41,625 nucleotides of DNA from a virus. Location of the stretch: positions 1-41,625 of IMG/VR virus record IMGVR_UViG_3300010373_000022. One strand, given 5' to 3'. Made by a program: the position numbers and the translations under genes. Below, piece by piece: positions 13,359-41,625 of this stretch (position 1 is its first letter; every line of letters starts with the position of its first letter). The notes below the pieces were generated by a model that was not told the origin of the DNA, did not search any database, and saw nothing but the letters and a program-made list of their open reading frames with translations.

Positions 13359-13686
13359 AGGACACCTCCATTTCCTCGGCGCGGTGGAGGTGGTAGGCGA
13401 GGCGCGTCCAGCGGACCAGGAGGGCGCGGCGGCGGGTGTCCAGGACCTGCTTGCGGCTCCATCGCTTCGTCCAGGTCCAGCGGCGGTCCATCGCCGTGTG
13501 CGCGACGCGGGCGCGGTCGGTCAGTTCGCGGAGCCGCTCCTCGCGCTGGGCCAGGGCGAGGCCCGAGGGGGACAGCCGGTAGTCGAGGTCCTCGGGCTCA
13601 CATGCGTCGCGCTCCCGGTTCAGCTCGAAGACGTCCTTCATTCGCCGCGGCTTGCCCGTCGCGGCGGTCCGGGGTAGATTGAGCAT
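13351..13686 (-). CDS. First gene of the leftward early operon, helical basic protein
   Basis: The product has 111 residues from ATG 13686, preceded by AAGGA at eight bases. It is mostly helical and Arg-rich (RWTWTKRWSRKQVLDTRRRALL) and could bind nucleic acid. It is the first gene after the leftward promoter at 13799-13826 and a hairpin in the leader at 13724-13756. No family recognised. Confidence 0.6.
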   Translation of the reverse strand: MLNLPRTAATGKPRRMKDVFELNRERDACEPEDLDYRLSPSGLALAQREERLRELTDRARVAHTAMDRRWTWTKRWSRKQVLDTRRRALLVRWTRLAYHLHRAEEMEVSFG

Positions 13687-13723
13687 TAGAAGGGTCCTTG
13701 TTGCAGGGGGCCACTTCGAACCC

Positions 13724-13761
13724 GGCCTCGTGAGTGCAGCGAACACTCACGGGGCCTTTTT
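13724..13761 (+). terminator. Terminator-like hairpin in leader of the leftward operon, pointing right
   Basis: A 13-bp stem (13724-13736 with 13744-13756, one G-T wobble) with loop CAGCGAA is followed on the plus strand by TTTTT and then CATGCGCC. Read rightward it is a strong intrinsic terminator although no rightward gene precedes it; read leftward it is a stable hairpin in the 5' leader of the early transcript. Confidence 0.65.
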
Positions 13762-13798
13762 CATGCGCCGATCGAGCCACTCTTGATCGGACACCTCT

Positions 13799-14167: not shown

Positions 14168-14240
14168 GCTCGCTCCGCATGTTGCTTTGTTGAACCAGGC
14201 TCTTGATCGTGGCCGGGCTGCGCACTAGGTTGGACCGAGC

Positions 14241-14340
14241 GCGTGCCCACTACCACGTGCCCAAATCACGGTTCGGGCTTGCCCGATCCAACGCCCCTGC
14301 GCGGGAGTAGTGGCCTGCGCAGGGGCGTCTCCATGCGCGG
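14241..14340 (+). ncRNA. Structured pseudoknot RNA element, copy A
   Basis: Stem 1: a hairpin CGGG-CTTG-CCCG (14274-14285, a CUUG tetraloop). Stem 2: a perfect 12-bp hairpin (14291-14302 with 14317-14328). CCACTAC at 14247-14253 pairs perfectly with GTAGTGG at 14307-14313 in the loop of stem 2, making a pseudoknot. The homologous copy at 17311 keeps every helix with compensatory changes. It ends in CCATGCGCGG, where ATG 14333 opens a five-codon frame whose TAA overlaps the start of the next gene (TAATG). It may be a leader regulator or terminator for the gene at 14350. The stretch 14168-14240 holds nothing else recognisable. Confidence 0.75.
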
Positions 14341-14349
14341 AGCCTGCTA

Positions 14350-14955
14350 ATGCGCGACATCGACGATGATGAGGATGACGACGATCGCCCGATACGGAGG
14401 CCCAAAGAGGTAAATGGCCTTGGGGTGGCCGCCTTCATCTTCGGCGTGCTCGCCCTGGCGATCTCATGGCTCCCCCCTTACAACTTCGCCGTCGTCCCGC
14501 TCGGCGGTATCGGCTTCCTCCTGGCCTGCCTGGGACTCGTGATCTCCTTCATCAACAGCCGCATCAGTTCGACGTGGCCGGCGACCGCGCTGCTCTTATG
14601 CCTCATGGCCTTCGGACTGCTGGTGCTGACCACGCCAGAGATCACCGAAGCGATCGAGCGCGAGTGGGCACGCCAGGAGCTGGAGAGCAAGAAGGCCCGT
14701 CTCGACGCACTGAAGGAAGCCGAGGCGAAAGCGGCGGCATTGCCTCCCGCACCAACTCCGGCGCCGGAGCCTCCTCCGCCGCTCCCCTCTGATCCGCAGG
14801 CGAAGGTGGCACTCGAATCCGCGACGTCCGCCCGCTTCAATGGCAACGAGGCCGCGGCGATCTACATGCTCCGCAAGCTGATCAAGGCCCACCCGGGCAC
14901 GGCCGAGGCGCAGGCGGCGAAGGACCAGCTCGCCGAGATGCGGGCCAAGCCATGA
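14350..14955 (+). CDS. Three-helix membrane protein with TPR-like tail
   Basis: The product has 201 residues. After an acidic start (MRDIDDDEDDDD) there are three hydrophobic segments (about 23-42, 47-68 and 75-93), then a charged helix, a Pro-rich linker (ALPPAPTPAPEPPPPLP) and a C-terminal repeat-like helical pair (SARFNGNEAAAIYMLRKLIK, then GTAEAQAAKDQL) resembling one tetratricopeptide unit. Probably an inner-membrane protein exposing a protein-binding tail. The ATG has GGAG seven bases upstream, and follows RNA element A. Function unknown. Confidence 0.7.
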   Translation: MRDIDDDEDDDDRPIRRPKEVNGLGVAAFIFGVLALAISWLPPYNFAVVPLGGIGFLLACLGLVISFINSRISSTWPATALLLCLMAFGLLVLTTPEITEAIEREWARQELESKKARLDALKEAEAKAAALPPAPTPAPEPPPPLPSDPQAKVALESATSARFNGNEAAAIYMLRKLIKAHPGTAEAQAAKDQLAEMRAKP

Positions 14956-15053
14956 GCTGGTTCGACGCCGTCGGCATCATCGTGGCGACGCTCGTCGGCT
15001 TCCCGCTCCTGGCGTGGATCGGGCGGCTGCGGGAGTGGGGGCGGAGGGACTGA
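14952..15053 (+). CDS. 33-residue single-span membrane peptide
   Basis: Its ATG overlaps the TGA of the previous gene (ATGA). Reads MSWFDAVGIIVATLVGFPLL then AWIGRLREWGRRD: one membrane helix with a basic tail. Coupling to a membrane protein suggests a joint complex. Function unknown. Confidence 0.6.
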   Translation: MSWFDAVGIIVATLVGFPLLAWIGRLREWGRRD

Positions 15054-15055
15054 GG

Positions 15056-15292
15056 CTAACGGGTGAGCTGGCGCGTGGTCTGGCGGGGCGGAGTGGAAGT
15101 GGGGCGGGCGAACGGGCAGGCGCAGGCGTCGAGGCGCTGGTTGAAGTGGTAGATGGCGCCGGAAACGCCGTTGGCGAGCGCGCTGAGACCGATCGCCATC
15201 ATCTGCCGCCAGAAGTCGTGCTCGTACAGCGACTCATAGCCGAACGCAAGGGCGGTGGCGATCGCACAGGCCAGGAACGGCACGCGGTACAT
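15056..15292 (-). CDS. Small membrane protein, opposite strand
   Basis: The product has 78 residues, with a hydrophobic N-terminus (MYRVPFLACAIATALAFGYE) and a second amphipathic or hydrophobic region (MMAIGLSALANGVSGAIY), then a Cys/Pro/Thr-rich tail. The ATG 15292 has AGGAG about ten bases upstream. It is an isolated leftward gene among rightward ones, which is typical of a moron or lysogenic-conversion gene. Function unknown. Confidence 0.5.
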   Translation of the reverse strand: MYRVPFLACAIATALAFGYESLYEHDFWRQMMAIGLSALANGVSGAIYHFNQRLDACACPFARPTSTPPRQTTRQLTR

Positions 15293-15325
15293 GGGCGTTT
15301 GGTCTCCTGGGGTGAATGATAGCTC

Positions 15326-15925
15326 ATGAGTGGCATGGGCCGGAAGTGGTGGGAACGCATCAAGCCCTACCTTGAGGTGATCGGCCATTTCATCAATGTC
15401 CGGGAGATGGCCTACCTCTTGCTCGGGGCGGCCGGCACGGCGGTCTCCCGATTGGCCCGACTGGACAGGCCGTGGCTGATCGCGCTCATGTGGCTGCCGT
15501 TCTTTGGGTCGATCGCCGTGATCGTGATTCGGCACCGGCGCGACCGGCGAGCGCTCACGGCTCCCAAGCCCGGGTCCCTGGCCCAGCTCGCGGCACGGCG
15601 CCCAGCGGTCGGCCACGACAGCCGCATCCCATTCCCGCTCAAGGTCCATTTCGCCGCCGGCGTCGCGCGCGACATCGTCTTCGAGGCGATGGCGGCGTGG
15701 GACGGAGACACGATCGTCGCACCGTCGCTCATCTGCCCGGACTGCGGGGCGATCATCGACGTCCGGCAGAACCCGCGCGGGGCCAAGAGCCTGCTCGGTG
15801 CGGTGGCGTTCCTCGAATGCCGCAAGTGCCGGTTCGAAGGCACAGTGATGATGAGCTGCGACGAGCTCCTCGACGCGATCCGGTGGGCGTTCTACCGGCA
15901 TGAAGACGAGTCAGGCAGGCTTTAG
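15326..15925 (+). CDS. Membrane protein with C-terminal zinc ribbon
   Basis: The product has 199 residues. Hydrophobic segments lie near residues 27-42 and 50-68, then a basic stretch RHRRDRR, and from about 135 a zinc-ribbon-like module CPDCGAIIDV...CRKCRFEGTV. Probably membrane-anchored with a cytoplasmic zinc module. No family recognised. A moron role, such as exclusion of other phages, is possible but unsupported. Confidence 0.6.
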   Translation: MSGMGRKWWERIKPYLEVIGHFINVREMAYLLLGAAGTAVSRLARLDRPWLIALMWLPFFGSIAVIVIRHRRDRRALTAPKPGSLAQLAARRPAVGHDSRIPFPLKVHFAAGVARDIVFEAMAAWDGDTIVAPSLICPDCGAIIDVRQNPRGAKSLLGAVAFLECRKCRFEGTVMMSCDELLDAIRWAFYRHEDESGRL

Positions 15926-16000
15926 TGCCGCTCCTGACATGGATCGGTCGGCTAAGGGAATGGGGACGGAGGGACGATTCGGAGAGGTGAGGTGCAAGCC

Positions 16001-16471
16001 ATGCTGATGATGACGCCGGAACAGGTTGACGCCATCGCCCGGGGCGAGGAGAGCTCGGAGCTTTACCCCCGGCTGTCGTCGGAGGAGCTGAGGGACTACG
16101 AGGAATGCAAGGCCCGACGGTACATGGTGCGCGACGTGGACGACGGCTTCTCGAACGTCGAGATCATGTATCCCGAGTGGTGCGCCGCGCGGGGCCTCCC
16201 GATGATGAAGATCCTCTATATCGGCAACCTTGCATCGGTCTCGGTTCACACCAACCCCTTCTCCGTGACATCCCGACTCGATCGGCAAACGTTGGCGCGG
16301 GTCGTGCGGTTATGCCAGCCGCTCTCCGCGGTCGCGGATTCAGTCCTCTGCTGCGGGGAGAATCGGCTGCGGATCTGGGGGCTGCCGCGAGCGAAAGCGC
16401 CGGCGGTTGCCGCCCGGATCTGGAAGTACATCCGATTCTCGAAGACCGGCGACTGGGCGGCGACTGAATGA
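16001..16471 (+). CDS. Hypothetical 156-residue protein
   Basis: Starts MLMMTPEQVDAIARGEESSE. An acidic helical N-terminus leads to a beta-rich C-terminal half (LASVSVHTNPFSVTSRLDRQ). GTG 15992 is an alternative start; the AGGTG preceding ATG 16001 by six bases favours the latter slightly. No motifs recognised. Confidence 0.55.
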   Translation: MLMMTPEQVDAIARGEESSELYPRLSSEELRDYEECKARRYMVRDVDDGFSNVEIMYPEWCAARGLPMMKILYIGNLASVSVHTNPFSVTSRLDRQTLARVVRLCQPLSAVADSVLCCGENRLRIWGLPRAKAPAVAARIWKYIRFSKTGDWAATE

Positions 16472-16544
16472 GCCACTGAGCATCTTCCAGCAGGCGATCC
16501 CGCCGGCCTACACCGAGGCCTGCTCGTCGACTGAGGAGGGCGAG

Positions 16545-16640
16545 GTGACGGTGAACCTGAAGCTCGTCGCTCAGCTCAGCGACTTCGCCGACGCCTGGGA
16601 CAAGAACATCGGGGAGCAAGGGTACGTAAAGGAGGGCTGA
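16545..16640 (+). CDS. Possible 31-residue peptide coupled to next gene
   Basis: A GTG start four bases after GAGGAGGG gives a short helical acidic peptide (VTVNLKLVAQLSDFADAWDK) that ends TGATG, overlapping the next start. The frame is open upstream, but no better start is seen. Coupling and ribosome site support it; its small size keeps confidence low. Confidence 0.35.
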   Translation: MTVNLKLVAQLSDFADAWDKNIGEQGYVKEG

Positions 16641-16870
16641 TGTTCGACCGGCACGTCATGCTCGAGGCCGCCTACCGTAAGGGCTGGGACGCAGCGGTCC
16701 GCTACGCCCAGCTCTTCGACAACCCCTACCGTCGGGTCGACTACCGAGACCGGTGGGAAAGAGGGTTTCGCGACTGCGAGGGGTCGGCCACGAATACGCG
16801 ACCTGGGTACACCCACTATGACGATCGGTCTGCGGCAAGAGTCGTGGGCCGGATACGGAGGGCCTCATGA
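16640..16870 (+). CDS. Hypothetical 76-residue protein
   Basis: The ATG at 16640 has GGAGG four to five bases upstream. Reads MFDRHVMLEAAYRKGWDAAV followed by an Arg/Tyr/Asp-rich sequence. The pattern AAYRKGWDAAV is a helix seen in many small phage proteins, without known role. Its TGA overlaps the next ATG (ATGA). Confidence 0.6.
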   Translation: MFDRHVMLEAAYRKGWDAAVRYAQLFDNPYRRVDYRDRWERGFRDCEGSATNTRPGYTHYDDRSAARVVGRIRRAS

Positions 16871-17226
16871 TTACCGACGCAGATATCCAGAGCCTCAAGC
16901 CCCTGGCGATCCCCAGGGGCTTTGATGTCGTCGCCCAGACATTCGGCGACCACACGAACATCAGCCTCAAGGACCTTCGCGTCCCGGAGCTGGCCAGCCG
17001 CGGGATGTTCGCGACTGCGGAGGCTGCCAGGAAGTTCCTGGCAGATCAGCCCGTGCAGCCGCGGTTCAGGGCCCAGATGACCTACACCAACGGTCGGGTA
17101 AATGTCGGCGACGTCTACGCAGCGGACCGGCACCAGGCGTTTGTCCGGGTGGCGGCACTCGCGACGGTCCTCGGCCAGGTCCTGGATGACGAGCCCTGGG
17201 AGCTTCAATGGCAGAGGAGCGGGTGA
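16867..17226 (+). CDS. Hypothetical 119-residue protein
   Basis: A soluble alpha/beta protein (MITDADIQSLKPLAIPRGFD, then a helix TAEAARKFLAD, then MTYTNGRVNVGDV). Coupled to the previous gene. Ends ten bases before a GC-rich palindromic stretch (CCCCGGC...GCCGGGG) that leads into RNA element B. No family recognised. Confidence 0.55.
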   Translation: MITDADIQSLKPLAIPRGFDVVAQTFGDHTNISLKDLRVPELASRGMFATAEAARKFLADQPVQPRFRAQMTYTNGRVNVGDVYAADRHQAFVRVAALATVLGQVLDDEPWELQWQRSG

Positions 17227-17310
17227 CCCGCCCCGGCGGCCGAGGCCGGGGCGGGAATGCCGGGGATACCTTGATCCTCCTGGCCCAGCTCCTTACCCTG
17301 GTCCCAACGG

Positions 17311-17407
17311 CGTGCCTGTCACCACGCCCACAACCGAGTCGGGGCTTGCCCCGAATCAAGCGCCCTGCGCGGGGGTGACAGCTCGCGCGGGGTGTTTTCA
17401 TGCGCGG
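17311..17407 (+). ncRNA. Structured pseudoknot RNA element, copy B
   Basis: Homologous to copy A at 14241. It has a CGGGG-CTTG-CCCCG hairpin (17340-17353), a 10-bp hairpin (17361-17370 with 17385-17394, two G-T wobbles), and CTGTCACC (17316-17323) pairing perfectly with GGTGACAG (17374-17381) in the hairpin loop. Of the seven pseudoknot pairs shared with copy A, four differ and all four changes are compensatory. The tail is TGTTTTCATGCGCGG, so a terminator role is possible. It precedes the zinc-ribbon gene at 17414. Confidence 0.75.
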
Positions 17408-17413
17408 ACGACC

Positions 17414-17707
17414 ATGGAACTCAATCCCGAGCAGCGGGCGCAGGCCCAGCGATTCTTCGAGGACAAATGGAGGATGGCGGGCGTCTGCCCGATCTGCGGT
17501 ACCACCGGTTGGGAGATGAGCAGTTCAATCGTGCAGCTCATGGGGTACTACGGCGGGACGCTTGTCGCCGGCGGCCCGGTATTCCCGCTTGTGCCTGTCT
17601 TTTGCAAGAACTGCGGCTATACCCTACTGTTTAGTGCGATCGCCATGGGTATCGTCATCCCGGAGCCGCCGGCCCCGAACGTGGGGACGGAGGCTGCCCA
17701 TGGCTAA
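17414..17707 (+). CDS. Zinc-ribbon protein
   Basis: The product has 97 residues: a helical start (MELNPEQRAQAQRFFEDKWR) and a four-Cys zinc ribbon, CPICGTTGW at about 25-33 and CKNCGYT at about 69-75. The second half is hydrophobic enough to lie near membranes. The next gene, a membrane protein, overlaps by eight bases, which suggests a functional pair. It follows RNA element B directly. Confidence 0.7.
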   Translation: MELNPEQRAQAQRFFEDKWRMAGVCPICGTTGWEMSSSIVQLMGYYGGTLVAGGPVFPLVPVFCKNCGYTLLFSAIAMGIVIPEPPAPNVGTEAAHG

Positions 17708-41398: not shown

Positions 41399-41625
41399 AT
41401 GCCCGCTCCGACGGTCAAATTCAAGGTCCTCGCGCACGGGTACGAGGTCCACGGCGGCCAGGATGGGCTCGAGGCCACCGTGCCCTTTCTCGTGGCCTGG
41501 TCCGATGCGTTCGTGTTCCATGATCAGGTCCTCGGCTTCCCCTACGCGCCCTCACCAGGCAAGATCGTCTACACGCTGCCCTGGGCGTTTCCCGGCGCGC
41601 CCAACGCAAAGATGTATGCGTATGA
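41399..41625 (+). CDS. Tail protein, 5' part (continues at position 1)
   Basis: ATG 41399 follows the tape-measure stop by nine bases. The 38 residues before the repeat (MPAPTVKFKVLAHGYEVHGG, then QDGLEATVPFLVAWSDAF) continue in frame into the copy at the window start to give 282 residues in all. See the entry at 1-745. Confidence 0.85.
   Translation, partial: MPAPTVKFKVLAHGYEVHGGQDGLEATVPFLVAWSDAFVFHDQVLGFPYAPSPGKIVYTLPWAFPGAPNAKMYAY
41503..41625. repeat. Terminal direct repeat, right copy
   Basis: Identical to 1-123; marks the overlap of a circular sequence. Confidence 0.93.

Follow-up and report, generated by a model that had tools for sequence, protein, structure and literature searches.

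Elements A and B of this phage genome are strongly supported as members of a real, previously unnamed RNA family under selection at the level of RNA, a reading that rests on the comparison of thirteen sequences in which three hairpins (H1, H2 and H3) are joined by a kissing contact between the loops of the first and the third.

The preliminary description of the window (the whole 41,625-nt stretch of IMG/VR record IMGVR_UViG_3300010373_000022) had placed two RNA elements at 14241-14340 and 17311-17407, and both were found at essentially those places (Table 1). They share their dimensions, with an H1 of 6-7 bp and an H3 of 15-16 bp that each close an 8-nt loop. In A, positions 14307-14313 of the H3 loop pair with positions 14247-14253 of the H1 loop through 7 bp (CCACTAC/GTAGTGG), and in B, 17374-17381 pairs with 17316-17323 through 8 bp (CTGTCACC/GGTGACAG). 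Both pairings had been proposed earlier, as had the count, which we also obtained, of four of the seven shared A-B pairs altered on both sides. The first strand had been described as pairing with the loop of a terminator-like hairpin; the pairing stands, but the strand is itself the 8-nt loop of its own hairpin, H1. The contact is therefore a loop-loop (kissing) interaction between H1 and H3, and the simple strand-loop pseudoknot was dropped. Likewise, the term terminator-like suits H3 of B, which is followed by TTTTC (U-tract at 17395-17398), but not H3 of A, which is followed by CTCC and has no U-tract. The left edge of the elements was set by the promoter, whose -10 box ends 9-11 nt upstream. 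Folding z-scores were -3.7 for A and -1.9 for B, and the A/B geometry, searched for on both strands, occurred nowhere else in the window and in not one of 40 dinucleotide shuffles.

Table 1. Elements A and B with their promoters and hairpins (coordinates are those of the window), and the genes behind all members with a clear downstream gene.
Feature	Coordinates	Strand	Description	Basis or matches
Promoter of A	14202..14231	+	CTTGATC, 17-nt spacer, TAGGTT	pattern CTTG-N20-TANNNT
Element A	14238..14332	+	three-hairpin kissing-loop RNA	fold and covariance-model match, 79.5 bits
Element A, H1	14239..14260	+	stem GCGCGTG/CACGTGC, loop CCCACTAC (14246-14253)	fold
Element A, H2	14270..14289	+	CUUG tetraloop	fold
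Element A, H3	14291..14328	+	15-bp stem, loop AGTAGTGG (14306-14313)	
Gene behind A	14350..14955	+	201-aa predicted membrane protein	weak family matches only
Promoter of B	17270..17299	+	CTTGATC, 17-nt spacer, TACCCT	pattern CTTG-N20-TANNNT
Element B	17307..17399	+	three-hairpin kissing-loop RNA, 3' end TTTTC	fold and covariance-model match, 83.8 bits
Element B, H1	17309..17328	+	stem GGCGTG/CACGCC, loop CCTGTCAC (17315-17322)	fold
Element B, H2	17336..17357	+	CUUG tetraloop	fold
Element B, H3	17358..17397	+	16-bp stem, loop GGTGACAG (17374-17381)	
Gene behind B	17414..17707	+	97-aa zinc-ribbon-like protein	zinc-ribbon matches weak, below cut-off
Gene behind C1				no family assigned
Gene behind C2			HNH nuclease	PF01844
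Gene behind D				no family assigned
Genes behind E			80-aa frame, then pilin-type protein	
Gene behind F			NACHT NTPase	
Gene behind G			398-aa protein, zinc-ribbon-like N-terminal segment	
Gene behind H				no family assigned
Gene behind I				no family assigned
Gene behind J			HIRAN plus TerB	PF08797, PF05099
Gene behind L401			50-aa membrane protein with good ribosome site	

The covariance-model search for homologues suggested in the preliminary description was run on planctomycete genomes and, together with pattern scans that included viral contigs, brought the family to 13 members, all in Isosphaeraceae genomes or in phages. A first pattern that left out the loop sequences (CGTG-N8-CACG, then GGGCTTGCCC) gave copies C1 and C2 in IMG/VR contig L037, a provirus of Singulisphaera sp. 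GP187 (Isosphaeraceae, Planctomycetota), which has three further copies in its chromosome. Three covariance models (R1, R2 and R3), which encode the three hairpins and are unable to encode the kissing pairs, were applied to genome sets of the family (45 genomes), the class (398) and the phylum (392). These searches yielded members D (L153), E (L154), F (L155), G (L156), H (L157), I (L160) and J (L383), as well as K (L158), a degraded copy; D to K all fall within Isosphaeraceae, with few candidates per genome scored in the large sets. The thirteenth member (L401) lies in a 52-kb viral contig and was obtained with a pattern that combined the promoter with H1 and placed no constraint on the loops; it then scored 52 bits with R3. 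Pattern scans of viral contigs matched at least hundreds of loci and, among the matches listed, only the GP187 prophage and L401 were kept after filtering by loop pairing or model; one scan of genome contigs gave 111 loci, with only GP187 real. Two model matches outside Isosphaeraceae (L384 and L385) have no kissing loops and were dropped as GC-rich terminators, and a second weak match in the L401 phage (L488) was without the fold by eye. Among 50,697 phage records searched for similar DNA, none matched element A, and short matches were limited to the start of the gene behind A or the sequence after it. A search for relatives of the L401 phage through its replication gene returned only L401 itself.

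Rfam 15 gave no match at the gathering threshold anywhere in the window, and relaxed E-values returned only chance matches in the region of A and at the loci of C1, C2, D, E, F and G. Thus, the earlier statement that no named RNA class has this form agrees with the Rfam searches, and the family is best described as new, narrowly distributed phage leader RNAs, set apart from the families in the Rfam library. Three chromosomal copies in G001 and G040 (L156, L158 and L163) are 84-85% alike over promoter and element and occupy different sites, and two of the three are decayed; the promoter-leader unit seems to spread or to be left behind by lost prophages. One of these copies (L163/L382, G040:C1:5958879-5958982) breaks off inside H3, and an IS5-like transposase reading frame lies a short distance behind it.

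In the 13-member alignment, all 91 cells of the kissing helix are Watson-Crick, a figure that arises partly by selection since loop pairing served as the membership test for weak matches; the strong matches within Isosphaeraceae were obtained without that test. Five of the seven kissing pairs are altered in both strands and one-sided changes are absent, and across the whole structure 22 of 35 pairs show double changes, with 0 of 500 shuffles as good; the 13 members come from few genomes, and the related copies F, G and K are not independent. When the partner was slid by 1-3 columns, pairing fell from 93% to about 40%. The loops fall into nine types (CCACTAC, CTGTCAC, CCGTAAT, CCATCAC, CCACAAC, CCTTAAC, CCTCTAC, CCTTGAC and CTGTAAC), and they match their own partners over 7-11 nt (7-9 nt for the first eight types) and foreign partners over 0-5 nt, with one of 20000 permutations as good. 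The preliminary description had named homologues that lose the loop pairing, or vary its strands independently, as the outcome contrary to its reading; the pairing survived, and eleven further members keep the contact. Its remark that both hairpins covary as well also holds for H2 and H3, whereas the H1 stem (GCGTG/CACGC) is nearly invariant in sequence, with three of its five pairs unchanged throughout. The invariant kissing pairs are a C-G at one end of the helix and an A-U near the other. In H1 and H3, 21 G-U pairs stand against 3 A-C mismatches (p = 2.8e-4), which shows that the selected molecule is the RNA of the + strand. Together with the compensatory changes, this bears out the selected RNA fold that had been proposed from A and B.

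The earlier view of the elements as leader RNAs before genes is sharpened by a shared promoter at their 5' end. The pattern CTTG-N20-TANNNT occurs at four sites in the window against 0.62 expected, and among the first 12 members an exact TTG-N20-TANNNT lies upstream of nine (expected about 6e-4 per member). In eight members, 9-11 nt separate the end of the -10 box from H1, and in E and J the box lies 15-19 nt upstream; the J promoter has an 18-nt spacer, and I and K have no clear promoter match. The L401 promoter was part of the search pattern and is not independent evidence. With a promoter just upstream of nearly all members, the RNA is placed at the 5' end of the transcript, and the predicted transcript start falls within a few nucleotides of H1 in most of them.

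The region 13651-13762 of the window contains a third such promoter (CTTG-N20-TAGATT), followed by a two-hairpin leader with a 13-bp terminator hairpin (13724-13756) and the 3' end TTTTTCATGCGC. An 11-mer of this region, TTTTCATGCGC, also follows H3 in element B. The region shares the theme of promoter and terminator but has no covariance-model match and was rejected as a third member; its loops could form at most a short contact containing G-U.

Each element had also been said to lie just before a gene for a small membrane or zinc-ribbon protein, and the genes behind A and B correspond to this (Table 1). In each of the eleven members whose downstream gene is clear, that gene is co-directional and in most cases lies 10-50 nt past H3, with L401 as a twelfth; K has no clear gene behind it. 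Co-directionality is a weak argument in phages, because neighboring genes tend to share direction. The downstream genes, compared with each other, showed no meaningful mutual similarity. Several look defense-like, namely the NACHT STAND NTPase (L374:7776-10145), the HNH nuclease (L037:8320-8862) and the HIRAN/TerB protein (L383), and the D protein (L372:3557-4900) may have an EVE-like N-terminus. Directly after H3, ATGCGCGG is found in both A (14333-14340) and B (17400-17407). In A it opens a 5-codon ORF (14333, ATGCGCGGAGCCTGCTAATG) whose stop overlaps the start of the downstream gene (TAATG), and in B its frame differs from that of the zinc-ribbon gene; these reading frames are possible leader peptides. 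Within the unit behind A, a 48-bp direct repeat (15003-15050 and 15928-15975, 85% identical) suggests a recent duplication.

The window encodes a temperate tailed phage with terminase, portal, capsid and serine integrase, and several of its proteins have distant relatives in the GP187 prophage and in the contigs of D and I. A perfect 123-bp direct repeat at the window ends (1-123 and 41503-41625) indicates that the contig is probably a complete phage genome, circularly closed or permuted. Replication-type genes are found near the element, and in the opposite orientation to it, in the window, GP187, L401, G011 and G040; by analogy, this boundary position looks like that of phage early-operon leaders.

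A cis-acting leader on nascent RNA is suggested jointly by the transcript-start position, the portability, the phage setting and the presence of a U-tract in roughly half the members. That the element is a cis-acting leader of whatever mechanism appears quite probable to us; that it gates transcription is our leading but tentative reading, held at somewhat less than even confidence. RNA polymerase would start at the adjacent CTTG/TANNNT promoter, so that the element forms the 5' leader, and would make H1, then the very stable tetraloop hairpin H2 and then the long GC hairpin H3. The H3 loop would kiss the H1 loop and lock the leader into one compact body near the polymerase; against this, by our own estimate, the linker lengths make such an intramolecular complex sterically tight. 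The locked structure may then determine if the polymerase halts at H3 or shortly past it, or continues into the gene. This would amount to conditional termination or antitermination acting on the nascent transcript, in which a factor of the phage or the host might or might not take part. Acting in cis, the leader would be a portable regulatory cassette before unrelated accessory genes of planctomycete phages. Cis action, hairpins and kissing contact formed simultaneously, and a transcriptional step are what we infer.

All intact members have a GC-rich H3 stem, and a U-tract follows it in 6 of 13 (B, C1, C2, D, E and L401). A proper U-tract is absent in the other seven, A included, so intrinsic termination is not constant and H3 is not simply a terminator. 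When the RNA is truncated so that H3 has no 3' arm yet, the minimum-energy fold predicted for most members joins the two loop strands in a long-range pairing, which makes a kinetic switch possible. Full-length folds of most members showed no stable alternative to H3, and a classical two-state attenuator is thus not evident.

Among other explanations, an autonomous small RNA of about 95 nt, with its own promoter and H3 as terminator, would act in trans on protein or RNA, and the neighboring gene would be incidental. A promoter that sets +1 at a wholly folded unit, TTTT after H3 in six members and copies such as K without a clear gene would all suit this reading, which we nevertheless consider unlikely: the U-tract is missing from seven members, and a close, co-directional gene in every one of the eleven with a clear gene is unexpected for a free-standing RNA gene. 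The element might instead stabilize the 5' end, with H1 locked to H3 so as to shield the mRNA from 5'-end-dependent decay and insulate it, and with no switching. This agrees with a 5' end that is predicted, for most members, a few nucleotides at most from H1, with the extreme stability of the stems and tetraloops, the lack of a conserved U-tract and the portability between unrelated genes, but in D (T9) and E (T5) strong U-tracts would stop transcription before the gene is reached and a stabilizer would hardly need a matched loop pair kept through nine sequence changes, which makes it rather unlikely.

A phage or host protein that recognizes the near-invariant H1 stem and the ends of the kissing helix could repress or activate translation or transcription. 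The contrast between H1, which barely varies, and the freely covarying other helices would fit such a leader, as would the invariant kissing pairs; no candidate protein common to all carriers was identified, however, and the start codons lie outside the structure, and we judge this reading improbable. We take a similarly low view of mutually exclusive pairing, in which the loop complementarity would serve an alternative long-range helix (an antiterminator) instead of the kissing contact. The truncated folds described above are in its favor, but it gives no reason for 7 nt to coincide with both hairpin loops in every member. A complementary 7-mer lies inside both loops in all members (H1 is degraded in K), and this strict confinement argues that the hairpins and the kissing helix coexist; on the predicted folds, purely alternative pairing is possible as a transcription intermediate. 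A DNA-level element, such as an operator or a recombination site with inverted repeats that only resemble RNA hairpins, is highly improbable and on sequence grounds already largely refuted: GCGTG-N8-CACGC just after the -10 box does resemble a dimer operator, but G-U pairs greatly exceed A-C mismatches on the + strand, the H1 spacer is 7 or 8, and changes in the H1 loop are mirrored in H3 about 60 nt away. Of the three functions offered in the preliminary description, the metabolite riboswitch was rejected, as the genes behind the elements are neither related to one another nor metabolic, an invariant single-stranded pocket was not observed, and the conserved positions are mainly the H1 stem and the loop ends; an attenuator and a protein-binding leader are the candidates left.

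Several known systems resemble the element in part. In the account of HK022 putRNA (putL/putR; PMC9378689), RNAs of about 70 nt with two stem-loops lie at the start of early transcripts of lambdoid phages, putL just downstream of PL, in two copies per phage genome; they act in cis on nascent RNA, where they bind the zinc-binding domain of the RNA polymerase beta' subunit and suppress termination. The element is likewise a phage RNA near the transcript 5' end, with two copies in the window genome, but it has three hairpins with kissing loops, whereas that account describes two stem-loops and no loop-loop contact, and the genes it accompanies are accessory genes of planctomycete phages, not lambdoid early operons. 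The element might even be an antitermination RNA that, as HK022 put does, works without a protein, but that arose independently, has another architecture (a kissing-loop body) and serves planctomycete phages as a portable cassette for the expression of accessory and defense-like genes; we regard this reading as improbable. In the cobalamin riboswitch, a loop of the upstream domain also kisses that of a downstream expression-platform hairpin (L5-L13; PMC10907184), but the element has no Cbl aptamer core (no Rfam match), is about 95 nt in total and has no metabolic gene behind it. The type III toxin-antitoxin (ToxIN) leader, with ties to phage defense, has the same order of promoter, folded RNA, hairpin terminator and gene (PMC5086642). 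The element, however, is a single unit without tandem repeats, its downstream proteins are mutually unrelated, and no ToxN or toxin-family match was found among the scanned downstream genes, so that a type III system was rejected. Since each of these three fails at least one testable defining feature, the element is not filed as a member of any of them. It also resembles bacterial candidate structured RNA motifs, such as the set of 104 including Rhodopirellula-1 of Planctomycetes (PMC2864571), which were likewise recognized by comparative covariation, often lie 5' of genes and are mostly of unknown function; none of those in the Rfam library, to which the comparison applies, matches the elements.

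These results add a previously unlisted and well-supported RNA family to a phylum in which very little is known of phage regulation, and they provide a clean natural example of full-loop kissing within one molecule, maintained across nine loop sequences. Several of the attached genes (HNH, NACHT and HIRAN/TerB) look like defense or conversion genes, and the RNA probably has a part in determining if the accessory gene behind it is turned on. If the gating of transcription is true, the family would represent a simple leader cassette that phages attach to their accessory genes.
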